Positions 36,920-62,845 of a DNA stretch of 64,000 nucleotides are shown here, in pieces. Position 1 is the stretch's first letter, and each line of letters opens with the position of its first letter. Origin of the DNA: Heterobilharzia americana. Its lineage: Eukaryota; Platyhelminthes; Trematoda; Strigeidida; Schistosomatidae. The stretch spans positions 47,773,998 through 47,837,997 of the forward strand of contig OX104129.1 in assembly GCA_944470555.2 (NCBI GenBank), given 5' to 3'. Below the pieces are notes generated by a model, which made no database searches, was not told where the DNA came from, and saw only the letters and a list, made by a program, of their open reading frames with translations. The translations under genes were made by a program, and so were the position numbers.

Positions 36920-37330
36920 GTGGGAATTTATTCATTGATTTCAGGTCTGTATTCACCGTGGACTGACATCAGTTGGAAAACACTGGAAACCTAAGGGGCA
37001 GTGGATAGCTGTTTCGTCCTAGTATAGGACTCCTAAGTGGTACGCATCCATGACTTTGTCACGGAGGGAGAATTGATTCCCAAAGTTCTTATCATAAGTC
37101 ATGACGGGTGAAATCAACCAAGACGGATATGAGGACAGTAACTCAAAAATAACGTTTGGTCATCATCGCACTATATGGTGAACTGACCAAAGTAGGATAG
37201 ATGGACAAATGGATTCCGAACCAGTGGCTCAGTGGTACAGTGCCAGTGAAGGTCATGCCTGGGTTCGATCCCTGGTAGAGTAATGGATATTTCTCCAACT
37301 GATGTCAGTACATAATGAATACCCACCTGA
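36920..37330. mobile_element. Foldback element: two family A SINE arms head to head
   Basis: The left arm is in minus orientation (36938-37095) and includes a hammerhead remnant (plus-strand TTTCGTCCTAGTATAGGACTCC). The right arm is in plus orientation with box A TGGCTCAGTGG (37225-37235) and box B GGTTCGATCCC (37262-37272), but its hammerhead is deleted: the sequence jumps from CCTGGTAGAG to CTCCAACTGATGTCAG. A spacer of about 110 bp (GGATATGAGGACAG...GGTGAACTGACC) separates the heads. It recurs, in either orientation, between the arms of other copies. Confidence 0.75.
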
Positions 37331-37744
37331 ATTTATTTAATATCTTAGATAGACGGAATGATACTTTCCTCTGTCAAAAAAATGAATTACTACTTGAAAA
37401 CACTTTAATGATAACTATCTGAGTAGGCATCCTTTGAATAACCCAGCTCAAGAATAAATGGTATGAGAACTGTTTAAGCCTTTTCAAAGAAAATGGTATT
37501 AATGTTCAGCTTTATCATCGAAGTAAATTTACGAGTTGTATCTAGCAGTTAGCTGCCCCCCCTTCGGTTACACAAGATAATCTATCCATGATCGTCTGAT
37601 CCTCTTTTGTCTGACGCATACTCGAATGTTATACTAAAAGTTCCAAATGGAAGTAGGATAAGGTCTTCATGTTCTGCAGACCAAAAATAAAGATTCTGAA
37701 TTTTATTATCATAATTGATAAAACACTCCATTGTAGTCTATTTA

Positions 37745-38000
37745 ATGGTTAACAGTGGAATCCAGGACGTGCATTTCATCCGACTTAGGATTCTTCAGCT
37801 GGGTGTACCTGGCGCCCCACTGAGTGTTGTTCTCACTGAGACTCGAACCGAGTGACCATTGATAAAATGTTCATTCAATAGCCAGAGACTTCATACAGTA
37901 GCGTAATGTCTTTGACTAACACTCTCGACCCTCTTACAACCTAATCCAACTTCCCTTAGCTTCTCCCGAATGATGCTTAATCCACTTTTCATTTCTCCAC
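37745..38000 (-). mobile_element. SINE family C with hammerhead
   Basis: On the minus strand a box B GGTTCGAGTCTC (37838-37849) precedes a complete hammerhead (37757-37809). Copies at 17.6 and 44.0 kb have lost parts of the ribozyme. The ribozyme resembles the well-studied Schistosoma mansoni Sm-alpha hammerhead (CTGATGAGTCCCAAATAGGA type). The 5' limit at right is uncertain. Confidence 0.75.
37757..37809 (-). ncRNA. Hammerhead ribozyme, Sm-alpha-like, core intact
   Basis: Minus-strand order: GGTACACCCAG (stem I with an internal loop), core CTGAAGA, stem II ATCC/GGAT around the loop TAAGTC, GAA(A), stem III A-TG/CG-T with a two-base CA turn (one T-G wobble), cleavage triplet GTC (plus strand 37766-37768), then CTGGATTCC. 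CCAG pairs with CTGG, and outer GG/CC pairing leaves an internal loop, as in the natural schistosome ribozyme. Position 10.1 is A instead of G, and 11.1 is T instead of C, so pairing is kept. All core bases are present. Confidence 0.8.
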
Positions 38001-38839
38001 AGCGCTTCATTGCCGAACAAAATAGGTTTATATAAAGCTGAACTGTATGCTTCAGAGGAAGTAGCATAGTTCCTATTCATAAACACTGATCAAAGTTTTA
38101 ACGATAGTGTGCAACAGTTTGTGATGATAGTCTGTTCATTAATAGTTTCTACAAATTTACCAAGTTTATAAACTTCTTAACACTTATAAGATGATTCTAA
38201 AATCCGTAATGAAACACAGTATGTTGTAGATATACGCCTCGCTATACAACCGACTAATTGTCTATTCAGTACTTGCCTACTCAAGCACAATCGGATTGAC
38301 AGAATTTGACTGCAGATCCTTCATTCTTGTTATTTAACGTGCATTAAAAAACGTGCTTTGCGTTTATACCTTTACTTACAGAGGTCTGTTTTTATTGAAA
38401 ACATGAGCCTCTTAGTATACATATCGATTTTAATGAATACTGAATTTCATCACAAAACTCCGATGAATAGACGTCATTCGATGTGGAACAGTTTACACTA
38501 CACTGCAGACAAAGGTCTGTTGTTGTAGTTGTGACTGGTCAATGTAGGGACTTCTGACAAGTTATTTACATTCGCTGATAATACCCTATAAGTAAGGGAA
38601 CCCATAAGCGTCGTTTTTTTCGGTGCTTCTTTTAATGAAGACTCAACTTAGAACCTCATAAATCGATATCTTTTGAGGAACCACTAGAGTCGAAGATCTC
38701 TGAACTAAATATTTGTGACCGAAATGGGTGATCAGAAACCACTAACTTGATCAAAGTAGCCCAAGTACTTGAGCGATCATCTCACTCGTTTGGAATAAAG
38801 CTCATCAGCGATGGTCAGAGACTGATTTTACCAATACAA
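38001..38839. other. Unassigned AT-rich DNA
   Basis: Nothing recognised. Confidence 0.45.
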
Positions 38840-39290
38840 ATGAATCCAGATTTGTATTCAACATGGACTGAACATTGGAAACCTGAAAGCACTGGACAGC
38901 TGCGCCGTTTTAGTGAGTGATTCCTTGGTAGTGCGTACCCATAACTCCACCGGAGATCAAACCCAGGGCGTGAGAACAGCTACTTAACGACGGCATTGTA
39001 TGGAGGTTGCGCTATACAGTGAACTGACAGAAGTAGGGAATGTGGATCAATCGATTCTGAGCCGGCAGCTCAATGGTAACGTACTGGCTGTGAAACCTGG
39101 AGGTCCTGGGTTCCTTCTCTGGTCGAGACATAGGGGCTCACTGCTTAGTAATCCCATACTAGGATGAAAGGTCTGTCTAGTGCCAACAGGTTTCCAATGC
39201 TTCTGCAAATGATATCAGTCCACGTTGAATACCAACTTGAAACCAATAAATAAGCCCCTACAAACCTCCGAATTGAACGAATAAACCCTT
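38840..39290. mobile_element. Foldback element: two family A SINE arms head to head
   Basis: The left arm (minus, 38850-38975) carries GCACTGGACAGCTG and a decayed ribozyme. After a spacer like that of the 37 kb copy, the right arm (plus, 39060-39250) has CAGCTCAATGGTAACG, GGTCCTGGGTTCC and a ribozyme remnant (CTTAGTAATCCCATACTAGG, TGAAAGG, CTGTCTAGTGCC). It ends in CCAATAAATAAGCCCCTACAAACC, whose complement appears at the outer end of other left arms. Confidence 0.75.
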
Positions 39291-39699
39291 TAAAGAACCA
39301 ACAAACGTGTCCACTAAACAGGTAGATCGGTGAAATATAACGACTGACAATGTTGCGAAGACCTACTTTGAAACTAGGGACCAAGTCGAACAACTTCCAA
39401 CTCTTCGATGCTTGATTTATTTAATTTTTAAGTATTTTGTACCAAATGTTACCAGTTACACTGGTGAACACTAGTACTGTTATCTGAATTACTTGCAGTT
39501 AAGTATGGAAGTCAAACTAGTGGCCAAAAAGTAACACTGAACGTCAAAAATCTCATTTATGACAAAATGAAAAGCATGCCTTATTAAATCGCTCAAGAAT
39601 AGAATGAAACAGCTGGTTCTTAAAGTAAGATGACAACTTGAAAATATTACTGAGCTAACAAGTTACGCTGAATAAGTGGTGACAAGAAATGCTCTGTAA
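39291..39699. other. Unassigned DNA
   Basis: Nothing recognised. Confidence 0.4.
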
Positions 39700-39935
39700 T
39701 CAGCCTTTCAGTGATGAGAAGTAAGTCTGACGCACTATTAGTTAGATGGATGAAACCCTCGGAAAGCTTTGACCGATCCAGACTTCATGCTTGTCAGCAC
39801 TCTTCAGCAGGGCATGTCTGCAACCTCCACGGAACTGCTGTCCCACCTGAGACTGAAATCTGCGTCACCCAGTGCTACAGTCAGAGAAGTTACCACTGAG
39901 CTATTGGGGCCACCCCCCCCCCTGTAGAACTGGGT
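39700..39935 (-). mobile_element. SINE family B, decayed
   Basis: Minus strand: GGCCCCAATAGCTCAGTGGTAAC (good box A), a mutated box B, then GCCCTGCTGAAGAGTGC, GCATGAAG and TCTGGATC. The ribozyme core CTGAAGA remains, but GAAA is GAAG and the cleavage side no longer matches. Confidence 0.65.
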
Positions 39936-40091
39936 TAAGCACATTGATTGATCACTGGAGGATAATCAACTTCATGTTGTCTAGTCCAATGTGATGATCA
40001 GATTCTGTCGATTATTTTGATACTGTTTAACAAATAAAGTTATACTCAGAATAAAAGGAAACCACAATATTTTTCGTTTCCTTATTTATCT

Positions 40092-43000
40092 GACCTCGCC
40101 TGGTTAACTGTTTCACTAGTTACTAGCTGGTCCTAAGCCCGGGTAAAGAGGGAAGGTTGGGTATAGAGCTAGCAACCCTACCCGATAAAACTAACCCAAT
40201 CGCTAAAGAGACTACAAAGCACAAAGAAAATATAAAAAATAAAATCAAACTTATTCCTCTCTGGAATCGGAGAGACGAAATGACGCCGGTTGGTGAAAGA
40301 CTTCGGGAAGCCAATTGGCCAATGTGTCTACTCTGCTCTCGATGAAAGCGAAAATCAGAATGGGAACATGGAATGTCTGCACCATGCTTGAATCTAGCAA
40401 GGCAGCCCAGATTGCAAACGAGATGAGAAGGCATCGTATTCAAGTGCTAGGAATTTGCGAAAGCAGATGGAATGGAAGTGGACTCTCCAAACTGTCAACT
40501 GAAGAATCAATAATCTACTACGATATTTTCACCCACGCTAAAACCGCGAGCACACTGAGGGAGTGGCTATCATGAAGTCCACAAGAGCATCGCAGGCTCT
40601 CATGCAGTGGGAACCAATCTCCTGCTGCAGGATCATGACAGCAAGGTTCAACTCGAAAGGAAGGAAGGTCACAATCATACAATGCTGCGCTGTGCACCTA
40701 CAAATAACACAGATGAAGAGAAGAAGAAGAATTCTACAGACAAGCAGACAAGACAACATCCCAGTTGGCGACATCAAAATTCCAATGGGTGGTGTGATAT
40801 GAATGCGAAACTGGGAGTGGACAACACAGGGGGAGAACTAACCATTGGTCGAGAGGCACACGGTGAAGTGATGAACGAGAATGGAGAATTGTTTGCAGAA
40901 TTCTGTGCATTCAACGATTTGGTGATTGGAGGCTAGGCAGTGTGTTCAAGCACAAGGATATCCACAAAGCGACATGGATTTCACCAGACACAAGACACAC
41001 TAAAAATCAAATCGACTTCATCTCAATCTCAAGAAAGTGGAGACGCAGCCTACTTGACACAAGGTCAAGAAGAGGAACAGATGTAGGTTCACACCACTCA
41101 CCATCTAGTGCAAGGAACCTTCCAAATCAGGTTAAAAGCCTTCAAGGAAGCTGGTGATAGACCGCAGTCCAAGTACAACACTCATAAACTGAAGGATGAA
41201 ACTACAAAGGAAATCTTCACGGCAGCCAGGCATCAAGACAAAATGGGAGATATCGAGCAACATCCCTGAAGAAACCTGTGTGGAAGAACACTGGAAGTCT
41301 TTGAAAGAGATGTGGAAAGAAACCTGCACAACAGTATTGGGAAGGAACAAGAAAGAAGACAAGAAATGGATCTCGACGGATACATGGAAGCTGATAGAGG
41401 GGGAGAGGAGGATGGTGATGGTGAAGCAGAAGACAAACCAGTGCAAGGAAGCTCAGCAACAAGAGGAACTGAGCACAACCCATAAAACACTGGACAAAGA
41501 AGTGAAGAAGAGTGAGTGAAAAGACAAAAGACACTTCCACGACACACTGGCAAGTGAAGCAGAACAGGCTGCAGGTAGGAGAGACAGAGACCTGACAACA
41601 TTGTATCAAATAACCAGGTTACTATCTGGGAAGAAAGAGATCAATGCAGACGAAACCAATAAGAGATGATGACGGAAATCTAATTACGAAAGAAGCGAAA
41701 CAATGGAAACAATGGGCTGACCATTTCAAGAAGTTCTTGAATCGACCACCACCTGCACTTCGTCCAGAAATACCACCTGCAGCCACTGAACTACAAGTGA
41801 ACATAAATCCTCCAACAAAAGTCGAAGTTCTGAACTCCATAAAGCTACTGAAATGTGGGAAAGCAGCAGGACCAGATGGGATCCCGCTAAAAGCACTGAA
41901 AACAGACGCAGAGACAACAGTGGGCATACACCACTATTGCAGAAGGTGTGGAAGGAAGAGAAGGTACCTGGCCATTGATTGTAAGAAGGGTTACCTTGTC
42001 AAACTCCCAAAGAAGGGAGACCTCAGTGTTTGCAAGAACTGGTGCGGAATCAGGCTCCTGTCCACCCCAAGCAAAATATTGGGCCGCATCATCTTGGAGA
42101 GACTAGAGGATGTGCTGGATTCAAAACTACGAACAGAACAGGCTGGCCGGATTCAGGAAGTACAAATCATGTGCCGACCAAATTGCAACGCTACGCTTCG
42201 CATCATCATAGAACAGAATAGAGAATGGCAGTCAACTCTACCTCAACTTCATCAATTTTGAAAAGGCTTTTGACAGCGTCGACCAAGAAGAAATTTGGCA
42301 ACTGCTTCAACACCACGGTTTTGGTGCCACAAACCTTTATCCGCTTCATTCAACAACTATATGAAGATGCTAAATGCCAAGTGATTCACAATGGGAAGCT
42401 TAGGGAAGCTTTTGAAGTGAAGACAGGAGTGAAAGAAGGCTGCCTACTATCACCCATGATATTCCTGATTGTGATCGACTGGATCATGCAACAAACAGTG
42501 AGGCGCAAGAGGAGGAGGGGATACAATGGCTGGACCGCGGAAAAGAACCTAGGAGATTTAGATTTCGTCGATGACTTTTGTCAAATGTCGCAAAAATTTG
42601 AAGATCTGCAGGCGAAAACTAACAAGTTGACAGGAGAGGTAGGGCAGCGAAGATGGGACTTCAAGTGAATATAGAGAAGATAGAGGCGATGAAGATACCC
42701 AACCAACAACACCATTAACAACAAGCTCCAATCACCATCAACGGGAAAAACTTAAATGAAGTAGCCTCTTTCACCTATTTGGCAAAACTATTTCAACTAC
42801 AGGCGGCACAGGCACAGACGAGGATGTCAGAACCAGGATGGGAAAGACAGCAGGACAGGCTTTCATTAGTCTGAAATCATTGTGGAGGTCTACTGCACTC
42901 AGCACAAAGAACGGGATCCGGATTTTCAACACCAACGTCAAGTCAGTGCTTCTGTATGGTTCAGAGACTTGGTGCGTTACGAAAGGGATTTCCAACAAAC

Positions 43001-43389
43001 TACAGACATTCATCAAAAACTGCCTACGCTGGCTCGATACTGAATAACAAGAATAAGCAACAAGGAACTCTGGCTGCCAACGAACCAACCAAGAAGCTAT
43101 CGCTGAACAAATATGCAGAAGGAAGTGGAAATGATTTGGGCATACACTGAGAAGACCATTCAGGGATATCATGCTCCAGGCCAGGTACTCGAGTGGAACC
43201 TTGATGGGAAGCGATGAGTTGGACGTCCGAGGCGAGGGTGACATGGAGTTCTTGTGAGGAAGAAATTAGAGCTTCTGGGCTCTCGTGGAACTAGGTTCAA
43301 AAATTTGCAGAGAACAGAGTGCACCGGAGACGTGCTACCGAAGCCCTGTGTTCCATTAGAAACCCAAGGGACATATAATAATAATATAT
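40092..43389 (+). mobile_element. RTE retrotransposon, full length, decayed
   Basis: About 3.3 kb. The 5' untranslated region matches the 32.6 kb copy. The endonuclease starts near 40345 with IRMGTWNVCTMLESSKAAQ and VLGICESRWNGSG. A linker with the QCKEAQQQEELSTTHKTLDKE segment follows, then the reverse transcriptase from 41770 (IPPAATELQVNINPPTKVEV, KCGKAAGPDGIP), LSPMIFLIVIDWIMQ near 42447, and the catalytic site as FVDD instead of FADD near 42565. Then come VLLYGSETWCVTKG and a short C-terminal part. The 3' end is GGGACATATAATAATAAT. Many frameshifts and stops make it inactive. It serves as the family reference in this window. Confidence 0.92.
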
Positions 43390-43394
43390 TGCCG

Positions 43395-43508
43395 GACATG
43401 ATCTCAATTTTGCAAGAGATTATGCAACTGCCAAAGTTTCGTCATCAGTCTAAATTAGTTCCACAAGAATATGTAAACTACGAGCGCGTTTATGAAGAAA
43501 TTTTTTAA
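43395..43508 (+). pseudogene. Coding-like segment after the RTE tail, unknown
   Basis: Immediately after the RTE tail a frame reads PDMISILQEIMQLPKFRHQS, then KLVPQEYVNYERVYEEIF and a stop. Its amino acid mix looks like real protein, unlike the surrounding DNA. No splice acceptor is evident at its left, so it may be an exon or retrocopy broken by the RTE insertion, or a chance ORF. Family not recognised. Confidence 0.25.
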
Positions 43509-43928
43509 CTGTGTAAAGAAATTTGTTTTTTATTCATATCCTTTCTGCTTCTGGGCTTAACAACCAACGGATGATATCAAACAAATGTAGACGAAGTTAC
43601 CTGTGTCTGTCACCTGATTGCTTATTATTTGGCACGCTAGTTACCTTCTTGTCAAGCAAACTGCTCAACTTAAATGTAGCACTTACTGAGTTTTTCAGTT
43701 ACATTTTTTTTCACAAAACAGTTTGCAGAGTTGTGATCACTGATGCACATAGACATTTAAGATGCTATACCACTTTATTGGAATATGGTTCTCGAGAGCA
43801 TTGTAAATTGTGTGTTCGCCTCAGTAACTGGAGTGGATGCCTTGACTCATTTCTAGAAGCAATATTGTGTTTAAGTATATTTTTTTCATCACTGTTTTTT
43901 GATATACTTGTAACTCCCCCTTGTTTTA

Positions 43929-44005
43929 CTGGGTCGAACTGTTCAACCTCTGTTGGCATATGCGCTCCTACCTGGATGCTTCGATAGTGTCTGAATATTA
44001 ATTAC
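43929..44005 (+). repeat. Short dispersed repeat D, copy 2
   Basis: Matches 17771-17850; see that entry. Confidence 0.5.
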
Positions 44006-44014
44006 AGTAATTTA

Positions 44015-44270
44015 CTTGGTTGGGGTTAACCGAGGAATCCTACTTGCAACTCGTCAGCTGGGTATGCTTTCACCCCAGTTAGTGATGGTGTTCCCACTGA
44101 AGCTCGAAGTATCAACAAATAATCATAGCTAATACAGGTTGCATAACATAAGAGGCAGCTCTCATGATAAACTGGCCTACAGAATAACACTAGTGTTTGA
44201 GGTGATAGATGTGGGGTTTCAGTCTCAATGGGAAAACCAACATTCACTGGAGTGCAGGTACATACAGCTG
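44015..44270 (-). mobile_element. SINE family C, ribozyme broken
   Basis: The minus strand shows the family C segment ATACCCAGCTGACGAGTTGC. The hammerhead core CTGACGAG is intact, but stem II and GAAA are deleted, leading directly to GTAGGATTCC. A head with TTCGAGCTTC as a weak box B lies upstream. Confidence 0.6.
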
Positions 44271-44639
44271 ACGGGTCCCAGATAGGAAGAAATACGCTTC
44301 CTAGATTTCAACGCTAACTACTAGCAGCTGAGTCATATTAATACACATTGCTTGTTGAACAAGGGGTGATCACTGAAATTTACTAAAGAATGTTATCGTT
44401 AACGTGCAGTTCCAACCAAAGTGGAAAAGCTAACACATGTAGGTATAACAATCAACCCAGTCTTGGGATAGGGTAAGATTTACTTCATGAATTCAATTAT
44501 CTGTACAAATAACTCCATTTCATGTTTTGTCAGGATGATAAGCAATTGAGCTTTCTATGGTAATCACAGCCAAGCATACACAAACACATCTAACAATCAA
44601 ACTTTGTTTTATTCAGTAAATTCAGTAACCATTTTATGA

Positions 44640-44840
44640 ACAGTTCTGAAGTAACTGTTGAATCCTCATCTGCCTAACAGGATACACTTAGTAAACTCAA
44701 GAAACCTGGTTCATTTTGATAAATCTATCGACAAAGTAGAAGTAGTAGCATTTCAAACGTTCAAACCATCATTGTGGGTTCAAAAGAAGTATGGACAACC
44801 TCTTTCTTTGTCGTGGCTGTCACAGACGATAGATCACTCT
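44640..44840 (+). mobile_element. Penelope-like element, C-terminal remnant
   Basis: The frame KVEVVAFQTFKPSLWVQKKY, then GQPLSLSW, parallels AEAIAIHLYKPSLCIQKKF and VRPLSLPW of the PLE at 25.65-25.73 kb. No YIG motif is left. The ORF beginning at 44658 has no independent meaning. Confidence 0.65.
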
Positions 44841-45117: not shown

Positions 45118-45313
45118 TTAAAACCTTCTACCTCTTTCTTTTTTGTAGAGTGACTTAACTGAATGTAGTACATCGGTCCAAGAGAACATTTCATGTTTCT
45201 GTATTATATATTGTATTCTTGATTGGATTCCCTTTCTAACAGTAATCCAGGAATTACTATCTGTTACAACCCCATCGCCATTTGTTATCTTTGCAGTGAC
45301 TACTTGATATGAC

Positions 45314-45315: not shown

Positions 45316-45316
<1 letters not shown>

Positions 45317-45367: not shown

Positions 45368-46495
45368 CGCTTGAAGAATAACCTTCAGATTTCACCCCTT
45401 GATGGTCGCTCAGTTTCTCGATAAGTGGAAAAGGCGGTGAGATAACAGAAGGTATTTTGGAAAGTTAAAAACATAAAATATAAGGGTTTGATCACATTTA
45501 TAATGATGCTGGCTATTTTTAGGCCTGTCTGTGACTTTTTCGGTGTGAATATTCTGTTGATTTCTTGTCTCTTCAACCAATCTAATATTTACAGGTTGTT
45601 TCATGTGCTTTCCCTTGCAACTTCGGTGTAGCACGATTGATAGTAAAAAGTTTCAGGCTGATGTGGTTTCTAACAGTGATTTTGTAAATCCTATTCCACA
45701 CTGTAACAATACCTAGTAAGCTTCCTTTGTCGTTTAAATATATTCTTCTGTCCTGACAATCATCTCTATGATCTCCCTCGAATTTAATTGCTTTTACATC
45801 GAATTACTAACGACTTAGTGCTTCTTCTATGTAGACATCATAACTATTTAAGCACACATTACAAACAGAAGAACAAAAATGTTTTGCAAATGTTAAAATT
45901 CTAGATTCTTCCTCACAGAAAATCCTTAACATCAACCACATGATTGATACCAAGTCGTATAAACAAAACCACCTGAAGAAGTTGAAACTGGAATGAAAAC
46001 GTGAGCATAGTTTTGAGTAAACACAAACTTAATGTGACATTTTAAGTTCAGGTTTTCCTAAGGACCCACCCTTTAAGCTACTTTTTTTTCCTAAATTGTT
46101 CATATAGCAGTAACATCTTTTCGAATGAATATGTAATGAAAAAACTAACTACTAAAAAATTTGTCAGTAGGTAAACAGAAAGTTTTCAAATACTTGTCAT
46201 ATACGTAAATTCGTTATACCATAGAACTTTGGTATTATAGACCTAATACATCACAAAGTGAATGTATAACATTCTACATTGATGACACAGAAGGAAATCC
46301 TTTTGAAGCTATTACTGCCATCCCCGCAACTGCCATGTCAGTGTTATTACGTAGTCATCAAATTCGAATCATTATTTCACAGTAGTTTCGGCTAAGGTGT
46401 CGCATACCTGTAAGTCTGTCTTACTAAAATGTACCTCTGGAATACATATCCGAACATAGCTAATGTAATTTTAGACGAATAACAGATTTCAGTCC
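45365..46495. other. Unassigned AT-rich DNA
   Basis: Nothing recognised. Confidence 0.45.
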
Positions 46496-46800
46496 TACTT
46501 GCACTTGGTCTTTGGTCTGTTATTCTGACTAGTCTCGAACTGGTAAAACTGGGTAACGTGGGTTTGAATCTACCAAGAGATATTGAGATTACAGATACGC
46601 CTTGCTGACGACTACTAATAAGCACGGAACCTACTTCTAAAGATTCCTGCCGACTGTCTACAACCGACTTGCATACATCAAAGTGCATCGTGATTGTGGT
46701 CCCTCGTAGGTTGGAGGCAATATCACCAAATAATCGATAGAATTTGTTCAGCACTTGGGACTAGACAGCAAGAAATTGGTTGCTTTACAGTAACGCAATC
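46496..46800 (+). mobile_element. SINE family B, full-length but decayed
   Basis: ACTGGGTAACGTGGGTTTGAATC (box B with GGTTTGAATC), GATACGCCTTGCTGACGACTAC (core CTGACGA), then ACGGAACC in place of ATGAAACC, and the family tail AATCGATAGAAT...GACTAGACAGCAAGAAATTGG. The loss of GAAA kills the ribozyme. Confidence 0.7.
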
Positions 46801-52290: not shown

Positions 52291-52499
52291 TCAATTTATT
52301 TCAGTCTATTGGATCATAGTTTGTTGTTAAAGAACCCACCCCTCTCTTCATCACATATTACCCATCTTCTTTATTCCCCGTTTGCCTATTATTACGTAAT
52401 TCTGTTGACATTTATCCACTCACCGTTACGCAGTTTTTTGTTTTCCATTTTAATATTAGTTGTTAAGCCATCAGTGGATTAACAACCTGTTATGTGTTA

Positions 52500-52690
52500 G
52501 TTGGATAGAGGAAATCGGCAAGAAGCCCTGCACATAGGTTTCATGCTTGTAACACTCATCAGCAAGACGTGTCTGTAACGTCTACGGAACTGATTTCCCG
52601 TCTGAGGTTCGAACCCGTATTACCCAGTGTCTCAGTCCATGACGTTACTGCCACGCTATCTGGGCCGCGACTAACCTCCTATAAGACTGG
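52500..52690 (-). mobile_element. SINE family B, well-preserved head
   Basis: Minus strand: GGCCCAGATAGCGTGGCAG (box A), GGGTTCGAACCTCAG (box B), CGTCTTGCTGATGAGTGTTA, CATGAAACCTATGTGCAGGG. The ribozyme core and GAAA are intact, but the cleavage triplet reads GTG instead of GTC, and G is not allowed at that place. Cleavage is not expected. Confidence 0.8.
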
Positions 52691-52719
52691 ATTATTTGAC
52701 ATGGGTCAGAATTTAATGC

Positions 52720-53045
52720 TCCATATTTACAACTTCTGTTAGCTCACGATATAGCGCAACCGCCACCCAATGTCATCGTTGAGTATCTGTCCTCACGGCC
52801 ATCAGGCTTTGACTCCACCGGTCACGACTTCTCATTGGAACTTCGGGAATACTTCTCGGCCCAGTGGCTCAATGGCAACGCGCTGGCCGCGGAACCTGAA
52901 GGTCGCGGGTTCCACCCCTGGCAGGGTCGTGAGTGCCCACTGCCGAGGAGTTCCATACTAGGACGAAACAGCTGTCCAGTGCTCCCATGTTTCCTTTGTT
53001 CCTCCAACTGATGTCAGTCTACGATGAATAACAACTTGAAATATT
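52720..53045 (+). mobile_element. SINE family A, spacer plus right arm
   Basis: Begins with the spacer found between arms elsewhere (ACGATATAGCGCAACC...CGACTTCTCATTGGAACTTC, as at 58.57-58.68 kb). Box A CAGTGGCTCAATGG and box B GGTTCCACCCC (52908-52918) follow, then a hammerhead at 52937-52982. Its core reads CCGAGGA (T to C at the second position); GAAAC, GTC and CAGTGC are otherwise correct. No left arm is present; a family B SINE lies there instead. Confidence 0.8.
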
Positions 53046-53493
53046 AATATGAGAGTTTGTAAGACGAATAAGATTGCCACCTTGTGATATAATTTAGAAT
53101 ATCGTAAAGATTTATAAAATGGTCTGGGGAATGTGTGCTTAGATATAAATGGTTTATGAAAAATTCCAGTTTCCATTTTTCAGATACTAATTTGCACTTG
53201 AAGTTAAACAGGTCTAACTGTAAGAATTATCAAAATGTGAAAATGATGTTCAAAGTGTGCTCTTTTTTAACAACTTACACATTTTTACCCAAAACATGTA
53301 TCTCTGTGTATCTTTAGATTCTTTTAATTATGTTTTGTACAAGGATGGCATCATCGTACACACTCTTCTGAATTATAACATGTATGACGTAATCCGACAT
53401 GAAATATTCAGTTTCAGCGATGAATGGTGTTTTAGCGTTCTCCACTATTCTAAAGAATTACATTTCATTGTGATTTCCCAGATAACTAATTTG
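53046..53493. other. Unassigned AT-rich DNA
   Basis: Nothing recognised. Confidence 0.4.
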
Positions 53494-53800
53494 ATTTCAG
53501 GTTGTTAATCACCATCACCTGACATTGGTTGAAGAACCATTGAAAACTTGGCAGCACTGGAAACCTGTTTCGCCTTAGTACGGGACTCCTCAGCAGTGTG
53601 CACCAGTCACCCCACCGGAGATCGAAACCAAGACCTTCGCTTCCAGCAAAACTTGAAGGTTCTCGGTCTGACCTCTGGTCGGGTGATGGGTACACACTGG
53701 TTAGGAATCCCATACTAGGACAAAGAAGCTGTTCAGTGCTACCAGGTCTCCAATGGTTCTCCAACTGATGTCAGTCCGTGATGATTAGCAACTGGAAATA
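53494..53800. mobile_element. Foldback element: two family A arms, almost no spacer
   Basis: The left arm (minus) runs from ATTTCAGGTTGTTAATCACC to about 53645 and the right arm (plus) to GATTAGCAACTGGAAAT. The arms are near-complementary along their length, with heads meeting at about 53640-53665. The left arm has a hammerhead with intact core (53554-53600). The right arm's reads GTTAGGAATCCCATACTAGG, CAAAG, CTGTTCAGTGC and is dead. Confidence 0.8.
53554..53600 (-). ncRNA. Hammerhead ribozyme, family A left arm, core intact
   Basis: Minus strand: CACACTG (stem I), core CTGAGGA, stem II GTCC/AGGC (three pairs, one of them U-G), loop CGTACTA region, GAAA, short stem III, cleavage triplet TTC (53560-53562) instead of the usual GTC, then CAGTGC. 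The stem I match is CACTG with CAGTG. TTC obeys the NUH rule, but the loss of pairing in stems II and III makes activity doubtful. Confidence 0.5.
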
Positions 53801-56240
53801 AATAAATCCCCAGAAACTTCCAGGTTGAATAAATAATCTGAAATCGAATGTCTTATTCAATAATCTATCCAGTTGAATACATTACATTACTGAAAAATTG
53901 CCAACTTAGTAATCAGTGTGGATTTCAATTTATCCGTTCTATTGTAATTTACGATGAGTTTTTCAGTTGTTTAATAAAGCCATTTTAACCATACGCACCT
54001 AGTAGCGTGTTCAGCAATAACAAAAGATTTTTACTTTTACTTAATAAAACAAACGCTAAATTATGATCAGTTGAAGTGGTATAAAATAAGCGAATGGATG
54101 ATGGGTATAGCTCATTCATTCAATAGGCTAGATTTTGAGTTCAGATCTTAAAGCGAACACTTACAAGGACAAAACTAAAATATAAGAAACAAGGGAAGAC
54201 AAAAGTGGGAGATTTCACTGCACACAATGATCAAATACTAGTTGAAAATATAATTTGTAATTGAAACAGATTTCGAATTCCTTTCGGTACTGGCGTAAAT
54301 ATTATGCTTCAAATACAAAATGAGACTGTATCTATACTTAAGCAGCTTTCATTCTTTCGGTTAACTTCCTAAAAGTATTCAAGTAGAGATTTGCAGATAA
54401 AATGTAGCATAGGTACTGGGTCTTCCCACCACGTTAATTCTATTCTAATGCGCATAATGACATTATACATTATGGTATTTCCTCGTCTTATTCTGCATGG
54501 ACCTCGCCATCCTCATCAATTGTCCTCATGTCCACTTCCAAAATTTCCGGTTAAGACACCATCATTAGGATGAATGACGGATAGACAGGTGCTGGCACAG
54601 AATTTTACCGGTTCAGCTTTTCACATTCTATACCAGATAGCGAGGATGTAAGTGGAAAAGTTATTTTAAAGTAGAAAATGTGTCTAAGGGGAGAGAGAGA
54701 ATAAATAGGTTAGTGACATATTAAGTATTCCGAAGATGATATAAAATGGCCTATTCTCAGCCATGTCACTGAAGGTCTGCAACCATTGATTCTTGCCTCG
54801 AAGACCCCAGCTAGGAAGTCTGTTTTCCGTATATAGCTCAAACCGTCAGCCAAGAACTTAAGGTACTGTTAACACCTCTGCATGCCAAGATAGGCTATGA
54901 GTTGCACGCGTAACGCATGTTCAAATTATTTCAATCAATATAGATTCATAACTTCATTGACTGACTAACTCTCCTTGCGTAGTCCTCTTTGTCTAACCAT
55001 AATACTGATTACACTGGGGTTCAATCACAGGTGAGCAATGCTACGAGGACACCTGTTTAAGATTTTAATGACTGACACAGTGTTATAGTCTGGCCGCCTC
55101 GAGCCGTTTTCCAGGCCAAATCTAAATCGGCTAACATTGTGCGACAAGGTAGACAGTGACTAGAGATGTGTTACACATGTTCCAGCCACGTGGGCCGACA
55201 AAAGTTTACAACCTCATCAAATGACTTTTCTATGCTGCCTACAAATCTACATCACCGATATGGTGGAACGGTTTGCTATCTTTACATGATACAATATGTG
55301 CTTATCGCAAAAGTGAGGGTAAGAGCAAAGACTAATTCAGCGGTAATACATTTTCCGAATAAAAAGTCTCATGTCATTCAATATTAAAAAACCTTTTTTC
55401 ATTTAAGTGATTCCATTAAACTCATTTATCTAAAGATATGACCTGCCATTAAACTAAGGTGAATTCGGCACCTATCAGAAGGCGACATAGATTATCATAG
55501 TCTGATGACTAACAGGCAACAGCTTAGCCTGTGATCAATTTATTCCATCAGTTGACACTGCATGATGTAGCGCTAAAATCTTCACGTATAATGCTCAATA
55601 ATTAGTCTTCATTTTTCAACAAACTAGCATTACTGACTATAGTTGCCAGTTACAACTGCTAAAAGCCCTCCACTGTTACGCAAGCCATCATTAATAGTTG
55701 AATTGTCATCCGCGATGGTATTTACTGACAACAAAGGTAGCTTTCACTTTCATCTCTCTTTTACATACTCAATAATATTTAGTATATGGTTATAAACCAA
55801 CTTATTTCATCATTTAATATCAGCTTAGTTCTAAGTGACCAATTTAATGACATCGTAAATCCTGAAGTCAGCGGAAGAAATTTAGCGGTTACATTCTCAC
55901 TGTCATTGAAGAATAGAACAACTCAGTGTATCGTTAGACTCTAGATACTGATTGCTTCTTGAATGTAGTTTTGTCAGTGACTGCAAATTTCTCACCTCAC
56001 TGAGTAAAACGCATGGTTCATCAACTTTCTTATGCAACCCAGAGGCCTCTTTACTCCTACCTCTTCGGATAACTGAAAACACTATGCGAATGAATTCACT
56101 TGGAACGACTTGACTGAGGAATACTGTGCTACTAATCAACTTAATTAAATCACATAAGCGAAATGAATTCTATTATAACTGAAGGTATCCCTTGTCCATG
56201 ACCACCAGTGAGTAAAAACCACGGATACAAGACTGTCATA
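53801..56240. other. Unassigned AT-rich DNA
   Basis: 2.4 kb without a recognised gene or element. Confidence 0.4.
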
Positions 56241-56514
56241 TAATATATTATTATTTGTCCCTTGAGTTTCTAATGGAATATAGGGCTTCAGTAGCACGTC
56301 TCCAATGCGCTCTGTTCTCTGAAATCTTTTGAAGCTGGCTCCACGACAGCCCACAAGCTCTCATTTCCTCCTTGAACGATCTCCTCCATGTCACCCTCAG
56401 TTGGGACGCCCAACTCGTCATTTCCCGTCGGGGTTCCACTCGAGTACCTGGCCTGGCGCGTGATGTCCCCAGTCGACCTTCTCAGCGTATGCCCAATCCA
56501 TCTCCACTTCCATC
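56241..56514 (-). mobile_element. RTE retrotransposon, 3' terminal fragment
   Basis: The minus-strand translation ends with WRRSFKEEMRACGLSW, QLQKISENRAHWRRATEALY, SIRN as in the other copies (WRRSCEEEMRGCGLSW), followed by a TAA-rich tail at left. Only about 270 bp of the 3' end is present. Confidence 0.88.
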
Positions 56515-56799
56515 TGCATCTAAATATGTAATAACCATCTAGTGTCGGCCTATCTAACTACATTCGTTAAATGCATCCCAAGTATCGGAAATCGCTACAC
56601 CACCCGTCACATAATTGCATATACACAGAATACACTCATCATGTGACAGTTTGTTGTTTCATTCTCACTTTAAAGTAGAATAAAAATCGAAATCATGTAG
56701 CATCACATGACCTAAAAATCACAGAATAAAGCCAAATAGTCTTCTGAAAAAATATGTCAAAATCATAGGATTTGAAAGTAATCATTATTAACAGTTATT

Positions 56800-56960
56800 A
56801 TCTTATCATTTGACTATCTGAGATAGCCGTAGTTTGGCAGGCTAGTATTTGTACTGAGTGATGACTGGAGGTGAGATGAAAATCTGAACCGTGGCTGGAC
56901 TCGAACCAGCGACCATCTTGTTACCGGCCAGGTGCTCTACTAACTGTTGACCAGGATTTT
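56800..56960 (-). mobile_element. tRNA-headed SINE, family E
   Basis: Minus strand: GTTAGTAGAGCACCTGGCC (box A region) and GGTTCGAGTCC (box B, plus strand 56897-56907), then CACGGTTCAGATTTTCATCT and the end CTACGGCTATCTCAGATAGT. The head looks like a tRNA without an acceptor stem, so it is a SINE and not a working tRNA gene. Confidence 0.7.
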
Positions 56961-58340
56961 ATTTCATTTAAATCACCAAAGGTTATTATCTTAACAATAA
57001 ATCGGAATAACTGTGACTCTCTTTAAGTAGCCAGATGCCTCACCGTAGTCACGTACCAGGCCTTCAGTGTTCCTGAAACGTACACATAAACGATCCCAAT
57101 ACGCTCATTTACTTGAATAAAATTGACTGACCATTTGAATCATTGACCTTCCTTTTAGGTTAAACAGTCGTAATTTATAGTGTTGCAGATGAAATCGTTC
57201 AAGTGGGTAGAAAATATGCACTTTTTCGATAAATTAAGACATACAGTACGCATTGTAGTCATCTAATCTGACAAGGATCTAAACAGATTCACCACCATAC
57301 TGAAGATGAGAATTAAATTAGGTTGCTGAAGTCGCTAAATTATGCTTTAGTGAATGTAAATAAGTATACTAAGTATACTAAATAAGTATACTTCTTGAGG
57401 AATTATGGTAGTACGTTTCAGTGAGAGATAAAGTTGGTAAGTAGAAACTAAAAAATGATTTCGTGAGTAGTTTAGCTAAATTGATCTTCAGTTTGAAAAA
57501 CTGTACATGAATTACAGGAGTGGTAGAACTAAGAGAAATACAAATCAGATGTTTAAGCTTGTTTACAAATAATGTCATGAATACATTCCCTAGCTGTACA
57601 TCAGAACACGAAATTATTGATTACTATCCCCCTACAGCTGAATCATGTAGAGGGTGGGTAAGTCTATCTTCACCTATGCGCACGTCAAAATTAAAGCATA
57701 TTACGTTAGAAAGTAAAACCTGCCGGCGATGACGAACACATTACGAAAACCATTTCTCAGCCACATCGGTAGTTGATGAATAATCATAGAACGCAACTGA
57801 ATAGGTATGCGGAATGAAGCGTTTCGACCTCATTACTAAAACTGAAGAAGGACGCACATAGGTCTGCACCTCTTCTTTGAATAGGTAAGCTGTCTATGAG
57901 CTATGTACTGACCAATGATTGCAGTGCATATCTAACCCTGAAAGAGATGAGGGTGACCGAGTAACAAAAATAAGAAACACGCGAAAGATACAAATGCGAT
58001 GAGCCACGTTGACTGGATATGCAAAGCATCTGTTATCTACCAGTACTCTGTACTTTACTACGGAAATAACAGAAGACAAAGACTAGCCTGTGACTGTAAG
58101 GAAGTTGCTTTATTCGACAAAAATATATCATTTATATACAGTTCCGATGAACATATAAAACCACTAGGTCCAAAGTTTGATTTTGATTGAGCAACTGTGA
58201 GATGGTGTTCAGTAAGGTTTTTCCTGACCACAGAGTGATACGAAACAGAAATCGAAATACAAAAACTTCTAACTTAACGGTTGATGAGTTACAAAGTTGA
58301 TTTCTATTAAAGTCGCTTCTTATCAGAGATAACTAAAGTT
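56961..58340. other. Unassigned AT-rich DNA
   Basis: Short ORFs only (57520-57732 and 57999-58190, plus strand), neither recognised. Confidence 0.4.
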
Positions 58341-58870
58341 CAGTTTGTGGGTTTGCAGGGATTTGTTGATTTCAAGTTGGTATTCATCATGGACTGACAC
58401 TGAAAATTTGGGCGCACTGGACAGCTGCTTCATCCTAGTAGAGGACTCCTCAGCAGTGCTCACCCATGACCCCACACCACCACGGATCGAAACCATGACC
58501 TTTAGATTCTGTGGTCAGCATGTTACCATTGACCTACTGGGTTGGAATCCAGTGGTTCATATTAACAACTTCTGTCAGTTCACGACATAGCGTGACCATC
58601 ACCCAATGTCATCGTTGAGTATTTCTCCTCACGTTCAGCATGTTTGCCCCAACGGTCACGACTTCTCATTAGAACTTCGAGAATCACCTCTGAAAGCTAG
58701 TTACCAATGAGCAATGAATAAATCCAATTTGGGTGTTTGTGAGGTCATGGTTTCACACTGCTCAGGAGTCCCGCAATAGAACGAAACAGCTGCCTAGTGC
58801 TCCCGGGTTTCCAGTGTTCCTCCAACCAATGTCAGTACATGATGAATACTAACTTAAAATCAATATTTAT
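58341..58870. mobile_element. Foldback element: two family A arms with spacer
   Basis: The left arm (minus, about 58365-58555) and right arm (plus, about 58690-58865) face each other across a spacer (58556-58690) that matches the 52.73 kb spacer. The left-arm ribozyme is nearly complete (listed). The right-arm ribozyme reads CTCAGGAG, ATAGAACGAAACAGCTGCC, TAGTGC and is damaged. The tRNA-like head of the right arm is mostly lost. Confidence 0.78.
58414..58459 (-). ncRNA. Hammerhead ribozyme, family A left arm, one core-edge change
   Basis: Minus strand: GCACTG, CTGAGGA, stem II with loop TCTACTA, GAAG, CAGCT, cleavage GTC (58420-58422), CAGTGC. Stem I GCACTG/CAGTGC pairs perfectly. GAAA is GAAG, giving a G-U instead of A-U pair at the base of stem III, and stem II closes with G-U. 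Reduced or no activity is expected. Confidence 0.5.
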
Positions 58871-59573
58871 CAGTATTCAAGTAGGCATGGGAATATAAAA
58901 TCGTCAAAGCTAGTGATTGTGAATTGTTGTTAGAATTATTGTTATCGGAAGATATATTGTGTTTACTATGCCAACCTTCCATGCATCATCCAAAAGTGAC
59001 AACTTACCCTTGATACTTACCGTTATAACTTGTAGAAAGTTATACCTCACTGATTGCTGTGACCATTTCTAACAAGAAGTGATAAACTTTGATAAGACAT
59101 AGAGATTCCTACCTGTTAGCCACTGAGCTTGTATTTCAGAAAATAACGCCAACATCATGTGTCTGCTTCTCGACTGGATACCAGAAAACAGCCGTCTATG
59201 TGTTGTTCGACTCAATGGATCTGTAAGGACTAGGAAGGACCGTGAAACAAGGTAATACCTATTCCTAATCTTCATCCACACACCCACCGACTGTAGTTTG
59301 GATGATGCAAAGGATGAATTCTATGAAAAGCTGCCAACTTTGCTACAGAAAGCAAAACGTTCAGATGTAATCATAGTGGAGGGTGCCTCAAAAACTCGAG
59401 TACGAAAAGTGAACTAACCAGAAAGGCATCTGATGCGTATTTACGGAATCTCATATCAACAAACCGACAACGGTGATCACCTGTTGCAATTTCGCTCCCA
59501 CAATAGTTTGTTGCTGACCAACACTAACTTTAGGTATAAGGAGATTCACTGTCTCACATGGTGTCCGCCTACT

Positions 59574-59583
59574 TCAAACAAAC
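59574..59583 (+). repeat. Target-site duplication of nested RTE fragment, left
   Basis: TCAAACAAAC, repeated exactly at 59941-59950. Confidence 0.88.
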
Positions 59584-59940
59584 TATCTTATTATTATTAT
59601 TTGTTCCTTGAGTTCCTAGGGCTCCAGTAGCACGTCGCCATTTCACTCTCTTCTCTGCAGCCTTTTCAACCTGGCTCCACGACTGCTCAGAAGCTTTCAT
59701 TTCTTCCTCACAAGATCACCTCCATGTCACCTTCGGACGCCCAACTCGTCGTTACCCCTTTGGGTTCCACTTGATGCCCTGGCTTGGTGTGTGGTGTCCG
59801 CAAATGGTCTTCTCAGTGTATTCCCAATCCAACTCCACTTTCTTACTCTTCTGCATATTTGTTGGACGATGGGTTCTTGGTTGGTTCATCGCCATTGGGG
59901 TTCTACTCGACGGTTTCGCATGTGATGTCCCCAAATGGTC
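59584..59940 (-). mobile_element. Nested RTE 3' fragment inside the SR2-like element
   Basis: A 357-bp minus-strand piece of the first RTE family, with the TAA-type tail at the left (CTTATTATTATTATTTG on the plus strand). It splits the endonuclease of the SR2-like element between TWCPPTSNK and the following sequence. A 10-bp target-site duplication flanks it. At its 5' end (59890-59940) about 45 bases repeat a stretch already present further inside (CATGTGATGTCCCCAAATGG versus GTGTGGTGTCCGCAAATGG), suggesting a template jump during copying. Confidence 0.92.
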
Positions 59941-59950
59941 TCAAACAAAC
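59941..59950 (+). repeat. Target-site duplication of nested RTE fragment, right
   Basis: TCAAACAAAC, identical to 59574-59583. Confidence 0.88.
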
Positions 59951-62484
59951 CATGGACACATATATTTCATCGCTATTCAAAAGGGTTGGTAGTGGGTTGC
60001 CGCTACTTCTGGAGTACTTGTTTCGACACCGATCACGCGTTAGTACAGTCTCACGTACGTCTGCGCCTTACTGGTCGCAGGGAACGCTGAATTGGAAGAT
60101 GAGAACACATTAAGGAAAGAGATAGCTAACCACTTATCTAACATGACAGCAATCCTTACCCTGAGAAAACCTCGTGTGATATTAAGTGTGTTGTAGAAAC
60201 AACCGTAAAGACAACTGATATTCAACACACAAAGGTTAGCAAACGTCACTGGACTTCTGTGACGTCATCCCAACCAATTAATGTGAGAACACCGATTCCA
60301 GCTGGCTCTTAACAAGATGAAGAGCGAAAGCAACTCAAACGTAAGTTGACCGAGAGTCTTCGCAATGAGCACAAGAAGTGGTAGCTGGCGAAGGAGAAAG
60401 CATCAGTGTTGGTTAAAGCCCGGCAATTATTCAGGCTTATTAAAAATATCAGGTTAAAAAAACGATGGCTAGTGAAACCAACAACGAAAAGGACGACACA
60501 CTGATAACCTCTCAGGATGGGCGGCTAGAACGTTGGGCAGGACACTCTGAAGCACAGTTCAACTGACCCTTAGAAACACTTTAGTCCCCCAACATTCTGC
60601 CTGAACCTAAATGGTATGCAGATGTTGGTTCTCTAATCCTTCTTGAAGTTGAGAAAGCTGTATAGAACCTGGAACGATGTAAAGCAGCAGAACCCGACAG
60701 CTTGATACCTGTTTTCAAGCATGGAGGTAGGAAATTGTTGCTTAAACTGACGGAGGTACTTGGAAGTGTATGCGAATCAGAAATAATGCCGTCAGACTGT
60801 TGTACTTCCCTTATCATCCCAGTCTATAAGAAGGGAGAGAAGTCTTCTTGTGACAACCGTAGGGGATTAGTTTGACTGACACTGTGTCCAACCAAGATCC
60901 TAGGGTTCATAGTTATCCGACACCTAAATGGAGCTCGGGAACGACAAACTCGAGAAAACCAGGCAGCCTCCAGACCTGAGTGACAGTACTTCGACCGGAT
61001 CTGCTAGGTTCCGCAACACAGGCATACCTGCCAGCCAGTGGCCAACACTTGCCATATTTTCTGACCTGAAACCCGCATTCGGCTCTTTGACGGTGAGGTA
61101 TTGCGGCAATTACTAAATGTGAAGGGGGTACCGAGAAAGTATATAATGCTTAGCAAAGCTCTCTACTCGAACTCATGCAGTTGTGTAAAGGCTTATAAAG
61201 AGAAGTAATTTAAAGTTGCTGACAACTAGTGGCATCCGTCAGGGATGTCCACTGTAACCGTTCCTATATAACTTCGTCATAGACGTACTAATGGACACAA
61301 TCTTAGGAACATCTGACTTCACAGTGATTGGTCTACTCCTCGAGGTCATCTGGTTGACCTGAAATATGCAGATCATATTGTCCTACTAGGTGAAGACGCT
61401 GACGAAATGCAGGGTCTTCTGCACGTCTTCAGCAGAAATCAGCAATTTTGACATGGGTTTCGCCGGCACCTGTAAAGTGTGAGATGATGCTCCAGAACTT
61501 GTCTGCAACCACTCCCAGTCTGATGGTAAGGAGTAGTGATGAGATGTGTCCACCACCTCACTTATTTGAGGAGTTGCGTCACCTCGAACAGCCTGATGAC
61601 TGATAAGATCTTAGCTCGAATACAGAAGGTCCGTTTGGCATTTGCCAACTGTAGCACCAATTGGAGAGATATCAGACTGTCTATCTGTGCTGTTATAGTT
61701 ACGACAGATGAATTCGTAGCATTACAAGCCTTTAATAGAATCAGTGTGAACAATGTTGAGGTCAAGCGAAGAATACTAGGCAAGGTAGGCAAATCCATTG
61801 GTGAGGCTGTGAACCTTCATTCACTGAAATGGCTTGGACATATACTGCACACACTAAGCCACCATGTGTCTCAACATACAATGCTAGAGGGAGTTGGATT
61901 AAAATTCAGGGTGGCCAAATCAAGGCATGGCAACATCCTATGAAGTCTCTGATTGTTGTTCCGAGCCCTGTAGGAAGATGTAGACTATCTGGCTGGGGTG
62001 CCCGAGACGATAAGAATCAACGGTTGAGTACTGACTCTTGATGACATGGCTTGAAATCAGTCACAATGGTGCAGATGTATTCACTCCTTGCCGTCTTCTA
62101 AAGCTTGAATATTTGCACTAACCTTTATCTTCAGACTGTTTATTCTCTCACACAAATTTATCCACTTTGATATCTGTTCTTTTCTATCTGCCTGTTCATT
62201 GTATTCTGTTATGAAGTGTGGCAACTAGAAGCGATGCGCTTATGTGAGAGGTTCTGTGTTGATTTTGTCAGTCAGTCAGTGACAAAAGTTCTCATTCCGA
62301 AGTATCATTTTCAAAAGCTGTACATTTATTCGTATTTATAATTACAATAAAATATATGTCCATCAGTAGCCAGCGGGTCATTAAAAACTGTCAATTAAGT
62401 CATAATGTGATTACGACTATAAGGTCAATACAAAGTTATCAAAAAGTTATTCATAGCAATAAAATAAATTGATAAATAGTAAAT

Positions 62485-62845
62485 ATATTTCGGGGTTTAC
62501 GGAGATTTTAAGATTGTATTTATCACAAACTGACATCAGTTGGAGAGAAATTAAAAACCTGAGAGTAGTGGACAGCTGCTGCTTCCTGGTGGACGGTCGC
62601 GCTATTTTGCGAATTGATGGAAGTAGGAAACCATGGATCATTGGAACTTCAACCCGATGGCTAAATGGTTAAAGTGTTCACCATGAAATCTAACGGTCCT
62701 GGGCCCGATCCCTGACGAGGTCGTGTGTGCGTACTGTTGAAGAGTCCTATGCTGAGATGAAGCAGCTTTTCAGTGTTCCCAGGTTTTCAACAGTTCTCTA
62801 ACTGGTGCCAGTCCGTGATGAACACTACCTTAAAAATGGCAAATA
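62485..62845. mobile_element. Foldback element: two family A arms head to head
   Basis: The left arm (minus) starts near TTTACGGAGATTTTAAG and contains AAACTGACATCAGTTGGAGA and GTGGACAGCTGCT. The right arm (plus) has CCGATGGCTAAATGG, GGTCCTGGGCCCGATCCCTG (box B) and a ribozyme remnant TTGAAGAGTCC, GATGAAGCAGC, CAGTGTTCCC, ending in CCAGTCCGTGATGAACACTA. Both ribozymes are damaged. Confidence 0.75.

Follow-up and report, generated by a model that had tools for sequence, protein, structure and literature searches.

Five loci in a window of 64,000 nucleotides of the Heterobilharzia americana genome (the whole stretch of DNA that was analysed) carry short interspersed element (SINE) arms with a hammerhead ribozyme design, lying head to head. 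This arrangement raises the question of whether the pair is a foldback element mobilized in one piece or is made afresh at each insertion.

Architecture of the pairs

The monomer of this family (family A) is 403 bp in length, has a GC content of 50.1% and consists of a tail, a spacer, a tRNA-like head and a type I hammerhead. A search of the window with a monomer profile recovered all five of the loci in the original prediction as head-to-head pairs of one hammerhead family, in which the minus arm adjoins the plus arm with a gap of at most 5 bp or an overlap of at most 12 bp between them. Profile matches and tail scoring placed the long end with the tail of unit 1 (36904-37333) on the minus arm (36904..37063), while its plus arm (37068..37333) comprised the spacer, the tRNA-like head, a deleted ribozyme and the short end. 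The tail was on the long end of the plus arm in unit 2 (38838-39278; minus arm with the short end, 38838..38968; plus arm, 38966..39278) and unit 4 (53472-53829; minus arm with the short end, 53472..53642; plus arm, 53645..53829). In unit 5 (58331-58864), a minus arm of nearly a whole monomer with the tail on its long end (58331..58748) was joined to a plus arm with a short end (58736..58864), and unit 6 (62489-62841) had a long end on the minus arm (62489..62590) and a short end on the plus arm (62587..62841). A sixth head-to-head pair, unit 3, was detected at 52453-53048. The left arm of this pair (52453..52710, minus strand) comes from family B, a second family with a tRNA head and a hammerhead, and is continued on the minus strand by a family A spacer stretch (52703..52858); the monomer profile gave one match, 52493-52858, for this side. 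The family A plus arm (52854..53048) contains a type I hammerhead ribozyme at 52937..52982 (plus strand; 40.1 bits, gathering score 34). The profile also gave one single-armed copy at 24952..25066 (plus strand), so that 6 of 7 family A insertions detected in the window were two-armed.

A ribozyme or ribozyme remnant had been predicted in the arms. Only two matches in the window reached the Rfam gathering score, namely, the ribozyme of unit 3 and one at 37760-37804 (minus strand) that belongs to another family and not to family A. The minus arms at 58414 and 53554 scored below the gathering score, but the remaining window arms gave no match up to an E value of 10; hence, the ribozymes of the low- or nonscoring arms were regarded as remnants. 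Full hammerheads, at 47.8 bits against the gathering score of 34, were present in copies L037, L038 and L046. Monomer positions 223 and 266 carry motifs that by eye we take to be A-box-like and B-box-like, as expected of tRNA heads, but ARAGORN found no tRNA in the window. The spacer was indeed seen in both orientations, but the suggested flip-flop or recombination between arms is not needed to explain this, since the spacer corresponds to the monomer's 5′ portion and adjoins whichever arm was copied further. Multimeric genomic copies were also present, with 11 of 35 arms exceeding one monomer and the longest reaching 561 nt.

Pairing across the genome

The analysis was extended to samples of the window's own assembly (665 Mb), and pairing was found to be general across the sampled genome, beyond the window. 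A predominance of pairs over single arms was observed among the best arm matches (young loci), of which 15 of 20 were two-armed and 5 single-armed, but not in 200 kb of C1 sequence sampled at even spacing, in which 8 of 19 insertions were two-armed and 11 single-armed, one of the latter having a short inverted stub by eye. A first look at the assembly gave 4,773 candidates for one arm, of which the two-armed share was measured only in samples, and the head-to-head element seems abundant in this genome. Wherever family A arms on opposite strands abutted in the young loci, the window and the 200-kb sample, their orientation was head to head. By our own estimate, fewer than 0.01 abutting head-to-head pairs would be expected by chance at 19 insertions per 200 kb, so that chance adjacency is negligible as a source of pairing, as had been proposed. 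L001, being unit 5 of the window, was left out of the counts, and the young-locus analysis disregarded older fragments lying upstream of L033. Neither L012:8330-8721 nor L012:3997, a one-armed stub, is included in the older-pair duplication counts or in the tail counts given below.

Outer ends and the mobilizing enzyme

The outer ends of the pairs were nearly constant, in line with the prediction, and fell into two classes, the second mostly 30 to 40 nt further out. One end was at monomer position 394-4 in 14 of the 15 young pairs (the exception, at 381, being L032) and the other at 29-42, again in 14 of 15 (exception, L030, at 19). Tail scoring of 34 pairs detected one long and one short end in 31 cases, two short ends in 3 and two long ends in none. 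A target-site duplication, usually of 12 to 13 bp, was located outside the whole pair, where it had been anticipated. Duplication scores were 8 to 14 in the young pairs, all 15 lying above the 95% level of the null (7; 99% level, 9), and 9 to 13 in 10 of 11 further pairs. Duplications were weak in the older pairs, of which 6 of 19 exceeded the 95% level, as did only 2 of 5 young single-armed copies. An assembly artefact was rejected for the ribozyme pairs, as their duplications differ and their arms differ in length and junction.

As read from the genomic copies, the monomer, the two-armed structure, the outside duplications, the arms longer than a monomer, the independent junctions described below and the presence of both end classes, one each, in almost all insertions scored are established. 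The arms are probably cDNAs of a nonautonomous hammerhead retroposon, SMalpha/retrozyme-like in kind, that were joined after two-sided priming of the type associated with Penelope-like elements (PLEs). A Penelope-type reverse transcriptase (RT)-endonuclease would make staggered cuts in both target strands, and each cut end would prime reverse transcription internally on the monomer RNA, one starting at the outer site and the other at the inner site 30 to 40 nt upstream. The template would be a multimer or a circle. Both cDNAs would be copied in converging directions across one 3′ region and would mostly extend into or through the monomer, a few stopping early (at 34 nt in the shortest case), before being joined head to head at a short microhomology. 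The product would be a single insertion consisting of a minus arm, a junction and a plus arm, with the tail on one end and flanking target-site duplications.

This genome is rich in PLE reverse transcriptases, with 150 matches scored of 4,312 candidates and many in open frames. The RT domain of a young PLE frame scored 46.5 bits with Pfam, which detected no GIY-YIG domain in this frame, a GIY-YIG likeness being apparent by eye only. When the genome was searched with GIY-YIG, two matches were obtained; one was interpreted as a cellular SLX1-like gene, and the other lies beside a broken PLE. L066 contains the C-terminal portion of a PLE frame, while L065, L068 and L069 had no long PLE frame. We infer the involvement of a PLE; no match to the monomer was obtained in the stretches searched, namely, those upstream of 6 PLE copies, a portion of L061 and the P1 repeat, with a clear open reading frame start only in P1 and L067. 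The 3′ ends of 12 fetched PLE copies were at pLTR position 298-328 in 10 cases and at 46 in one, with one copy unaligned, and did not form two clean classes. P1, the only PLE pair examined with both flanks, had no clear duplication by eye. A further PLE pair, L062, was dropped as support, since the palindrome that it forms extends into the flanking sequence.

SINEs are usually mobilized by LINEs, and LINE-like RT fragments were recognized by eye in the window (open reading frames 26864-28308 and 41614-42261); hence, a LINE-type enzyme of this genome could have performed the same two-sided target-primed insertion in place of a PLE. We consider this unlikely, as two start sites at fixed internal positions 30 to 40 nt apart, one per end, together with head-to-head copies of one 3′ region have been described for PLEs and, to our knowledge, not for LINEs.

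Junctions and descent of the pairs

If PLE-type two-sided priming is responsible, each pair would be a separate event. The inner junction was different in every one of the 15 young pairs, with short microhomology at these junctions, and 8 distinct junctions were present among 11 pairs picked as the best matches to one whole pair. At most, copies with the same junction shared common subfamily variants; private variants were never shared. Because these copies have no private mutations in common, pairs must form anew, and the inherited unit is the 403-bp monomer and not the pair. These results run counter to the original prediction of a foldback element in which the spacer flips by recombination between the arms. 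In a foldback or MITE-like DNA element, a transposase would excise or copy the inverted pair whole. Such an element would have the outside duplications, the long inverted repeats at its termini and the almost invariant outer ends observed here, and nearly the same junction did recur in a few older pairs (the pair at 58331, L002, L008 and L026 of the random sample). The restriction of the tail to one end in 31 of 34 pairs and the existence of single-armed copies argue further against this reading, which is largely refuted for the young copies and very improbable overall.

A variant found in at most two copies was common to both arms in 8 of 25 within-copy arm pairs, compared with 40 of 1,200 between copies (L032, with its 34-nt minus arm, was left out of this comparison). 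An inverted 5′ segment, a duplication and junction microhomology are also features of L1-style twin priming, in which an inverted 5′ part is placed beside the 3′ part of one RNA. Twin priming yields adjacent, nonoverlapping parts of that RNA, whereas the arms here overlap, each of them beginning within one shared 3′ region, which contradicts twin priming on one monomer RNA and leaves it a very slim chance; on a multimer template, it would merge with two-sided priming. Snap-back self-priming of a single cDNA, suggested for rotifer Penelope inverted repeats in a passage of PMC3846280, would give the head-to-head layout and the private variants common to both arms and would fit L046 (227/210), but it predicts near-equal arm stops and, with stop points in the 15 young pairs averaging 119 nt apart (of at most 201), is contradicted for most pairs and the least probable reading.

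Relation to known elements

Two-sided PLE-type priming has parallels in described systems. According to the sections of PMC3846280 on Penelope, its signature comprises an inverted pLTR copy, a 31-bp tail on one inverted pLTR and a 9-bp duplication. Penelope of Adineta vaga and other animals resembles the element described here in its inverted head-to-head copy and one-end tail of ∼31 bp, and also in its duplications (8 to 10 bp in several copies) and partial tandem repeats (PMC3846280). In contrast, Penelope encodes an RT-endonuclease (PMC3846280), while the present element, whose monomer measures 403 bp, combines a tRNA-like head with a full type I hammerhead and, on the first-look candidates, appears far more abundant. 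The non-LTR retrozymes of animals share with it a type I hammerhead, a monomer of ∼400 nt, multimeric insertions and duplications of >4 bp, their repeat units being given as 150 to 450 bp and their RNAs as ∼170 to 400 nt (PMC7229834). The GC content of the monomer narrowly misses the retrozyme limits of <45% and <50% in that paper, and we therefore term it retrozyme-like rather than filing it as a member; the pairs here are inverted, whereas the term "inverted" is absent from the available text of PMC7229834. SMalpha/W36.2 of Schistosoma mansoni is, by description, also SINE-like and repetitive with a type I hammerhead, while the passages on it in PMC8490949 do not describe head-to-head pairs with one tail.

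The purified PLE PAc of Anolis cuts and extends both DNA strands in vitro and starts reverse transcription at two adjacent internal sites that define the tail (PMC11167929, in the parts available). The start site was the same for both strands in that report, whereas nearly every insertion here has one of each; one start site per end is an insertion pattern absent from those in vitro data (PMC11167929). The PAc start lies in an AC-rich stem-loop (PMC11167929); although it looks AC-rich by eye, the tail of the present element is not predicted to fold, the tail region folding no better than shuffles.

PLEs were proposed in 2020 as "a strong candidate" for mobilizing animal retrozymes (PMC7229834), and in 2024 the mobilizer was still given as "LINEs or Penelope-like" (PMC11722881, in the portion available). 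Two-armed retrozyme insertions were not described in the literature titles and abstract openings searched. Chances are about even that flatworm hammerhead retroposons are substrates of a Penelope-type enzyme, with two-sided reverse transcription in which each start site is used once, one per strand. If so, the mobilizing machinery of animal retrozymes would be identified, and one tail per insertion would be a rule of the PLE integration cycle. The short young two-armed insertions are a natural readout of the mobilizing reaction and make the question of the enzyme testable. For annotation, two SINEs lying head to head can represent one insertion event rather than a foldback element.

Head-to-head copies of family A in the window and in the genome

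Family A, the hammerhead SINE-like element of the window, had been predicted from the sequence to lie head to head at five loci; a monomer profile detected opposed arms at every one of these and at a sixth place, window positions 52453-53048. Type I hammerheads like those of schistosomes, together with an open frame that reads by eye as GTP cyclohydrolase, make a trematode source likely. Paired and single arms were then counted in contig C1, sampled at even intervals as 20 stretches of 10 kb each and regardless of the element, from the 665-Mb assembly of 337 contigs in which the window occupies C3:47773998-47837997 (profile matches with E up to 1e-4). All 19 insertions lay within 9 stretches, the other 11 having none, and 8 of the 19 were two-armed. 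The arms of seven pairs overlapped or were separated by a gap of ≤5 bp, while the eighth (L019) had a 196-bp gap; a ninth candidate, L012:3997, in which a short tailed stub lies inverted, was recognized by eye only. Abutting opposite-strand pairs were head to head without exception. The two-armed structure is real and general.

Young copies were represented by the 20 best arm matches besides the window (ranks 2 to 21 of 40 scored, from 4,773 first-look candidates), 8 of which were extended. As several arms extended past one unit, the monomer was written as a 403-bp circular order of tail, spacer, tRNA-like head, type I hammerhead and body. Its GC content of 50.1% is narrowly above the limits stated for animal non-LTR retrozymes (<45% and <50%), and the element is, therefore, termed retrozyme-like. 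The spacer between the heads, whose two orientations were originally taken to suggest flip-flop or recombination between arms, is the monomer segment from tail to head; it simply adjoins whichever arm was copied further, and flip-flop is not needed to explain both orientations.

Outer ends, tails and target-site duplications

Fifteen of the 20 young copies were two-armed, with the minus arm first and the plus arm second, and five were single (L029, L031, L034, L036 and L041). The original prediction named constancy of the outer ends of pairs beforehand, and these were nearly fixed in the 15 young pairs: one end lay at monomer position 394-4 in 14 pairs (381 in L032) and the other at 29-42 in 14 pairs (19 in L030). 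All 15 pairs had mixed ends, which by our own arithmetic has a probability of ∼3e-5 if long and short classes are independent at 1:1. Sequence past the inner site was scored for likeness to the tail in 34 two-armed copies, of which 15 were young, 7 were best matches to the whole unit, 7 came from the sample and 5 from the window. Exactly one tail was present in 31, two in none and none in 3, namely L003 (anchor unplaced), L008 (unclear) and L019 (one point below the cut-off).

Duplications outside the pair, which the prediction had proposed looking for, were detected. In the 15 young pairs, comparison of the two flanks gave scores of 8 to 14, against a null from mismatched flank pairs with a 95% level of 7, a 99% level of 9 and a maximum of 11 in 2,000. 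The 95% level was exceeded in 15/15 young pairs and the 99% level in 11/15; the figures were 2/5 and 1/5 for young singles and only 6/19 and 3/19 for older or sample pairs, in which support is weak and decay is a likely reason.

Inner junctions and template

The 15 young pairs had 15 different junction coordinate pairs. A whole-pair genome search with L046, a two-armed copy, yielded 11 other full- or near-full-length matches, which were fetched (best 40 of 1,170 candidates scored). With mirror images and one-base shifts counted as the same, these exhibited 8 distinct junction positions; duplication scores were 9 to 13 in 10/11, and in 10/11 the two ends lay close to the two sites, one at each (389-4 and 26-39), the right end of L084 lying outside the fetched stretch. 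One junction was common to L086, L087 and L091 and another to L083 and L084; some of these copies differ in which arm carries the tail. Descent of these copies from one pair was rejected in favor of recurrent events, since the first three shared only three common subfamily variants, no shared variants were found between L083 and L084, and same-junction pairs differed from each other at 11 to 21 sites. The older pairs 58331, L002, L008 and L026 had a nearly identical junction; L002 and L008 were picked by likeness to 58331, and the common position may reflect either a hot spot or an occasional inherited pair.

Variants seen in ≤2 copies were shared by 8/25 arm pairs within a copy versus 40/1,200 between copies, indicating that the two arms sometimes have a visibly common source, either an RNA or a locus; gene conversion between the arms at a later time could produce a similar signal.

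Arms passed the hammerhead cleavage position M 337 (our own reading) in 34/35 cases, the exception being the minus arm of L032; 11/35 were longer than one monomer and 0/35 longer than two. Both results indicate that the template had escaped cleavage or been religated, and that it was a multimer or a circle. In the 11 long arms, successive passes differed at 6/21 common polymorphic sites, a result that speaks against one monomer circle as the template.

Proposed insertion mechanism and comparison with Penelope-like elements

The starts of both arms lie in a common 3′ region, at two sites separated by 30 to 40 nt. The point at which the arms meet varies, and most copies show microhomology of 0 to 4 nt or small gaps there (exceptions were an overlap of 12 in L035 and gaps of 5 and 6 in L032 and L040). 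This pattern fits two-sided priming, in which reverse transcription would be primed once from either side of a staggered break, producing two opposed arms; the head-to-head structure is explained as a by-product of the element's mode of insertion.

Published Penelope-like element (PLE) insertions have the same structure, including an inverted pLTR; one inverted pLTR may carry a 31-bp tail, and several copies have 8- to 10-bp duplications (PMC3846280). The one PLE reconstituted in vitro cleaves both DNA strands and extends them, starting at two adjacent internal sites that match the tail (PMC11167929); it showed no strand difference, in contrast to the pairs here. This genome is rich in PLE reverse transcriptases (150 matches scored among 4,312 candidates), some with inverted neighbors. 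In one such PLE unit, P1 (from L063, L060 and L064), an 808-codon frame lies between two 302-bp direct repeats, with an inverted, truncated copy ahead of them. A thin test of stretches upstream of PLEs found no sequence in common with the monomer, no fold was predicted for the tail, Pfam detected no GIY-YIG in a young PLE frame, and PLE 3′ ends were spread over ∼30 nt without two clean classes. Given these results and the lack of an in vitro strand difference, the attribution to a PLE as the putative enzyme source is a structural one. The element and the one-tail pattern are new; the machinery resembles a known kind.

L062 (C8:60234200-60239000) contained a 4.7-kb near-perfect palindrome (97.9% identical) including a PLE and flanking DNA, either an inverted duplication or an assembly error.

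Other hammerhead families and features

Family B matches lie at window positions 21655-21989, 39700-40020, 46480-46786 and 52453-52710; the first (plus strand) has an intact-looking, HH9-like hammerhead core at 21790-21863 (39.7 bits, below the gathering score of 52). Head-to-head places of this family were found in the sample, two each in L021 and L027, the other matches being mostly single (in L024, two pieces on the same strand are separated by 12 bp). One end of L027:6289-6825 is ∼130 nt longer than the other, with imperfect flanking repeats by eye. These pairs and unequal ends hint at a property of the machinery rather than of one family. The unit at 52453-53048 is chimeric, its left arm running from family B into the family A spacer and its right arm being family A; it looks like a template switch and has a weak duplication (score 8).

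A third family, SMalpha-like and carrying a tRNA-like head, has a type I hammerhead at 37760-37804 (minus strand; 41.7 bits, above gathering) and matches in head-to-head order ∼105 bp apart at 44023-44109 (minus) and 44215-44323 (plus), with a subthreshold hammerhead at 44262; L026:8298 (minus)/8503 (plus) is similar. Near-consensus type I hammerheads were present at L061:3081-3125 (minus; 62.9 bits) and L070:151-195 (plus; 58.6 bits), within stretches fetched beside PLE matches.

The window also contains a Twister-P1-like match at 40087-40160 (plus; 38 bits, gathering 67.2, E = 1e-4), a mir-3492-like hairpin at 61554-61631 (minus; 41.4 bits, slightly below the gathering score of 44) and a weak eukaryotic SSU rRNA fragment at 13581-13820 (minus; 30.7 bits, gathering 50) that may be an rRNA-derived repeat. 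By eye, a 503-codon open frame at 18988-20499 (minus) resembled GTP cyclohydrolase I, and LINE-type reverse transcriptase fragments were seen at 26864-28308 and 41614-42261 (plus).
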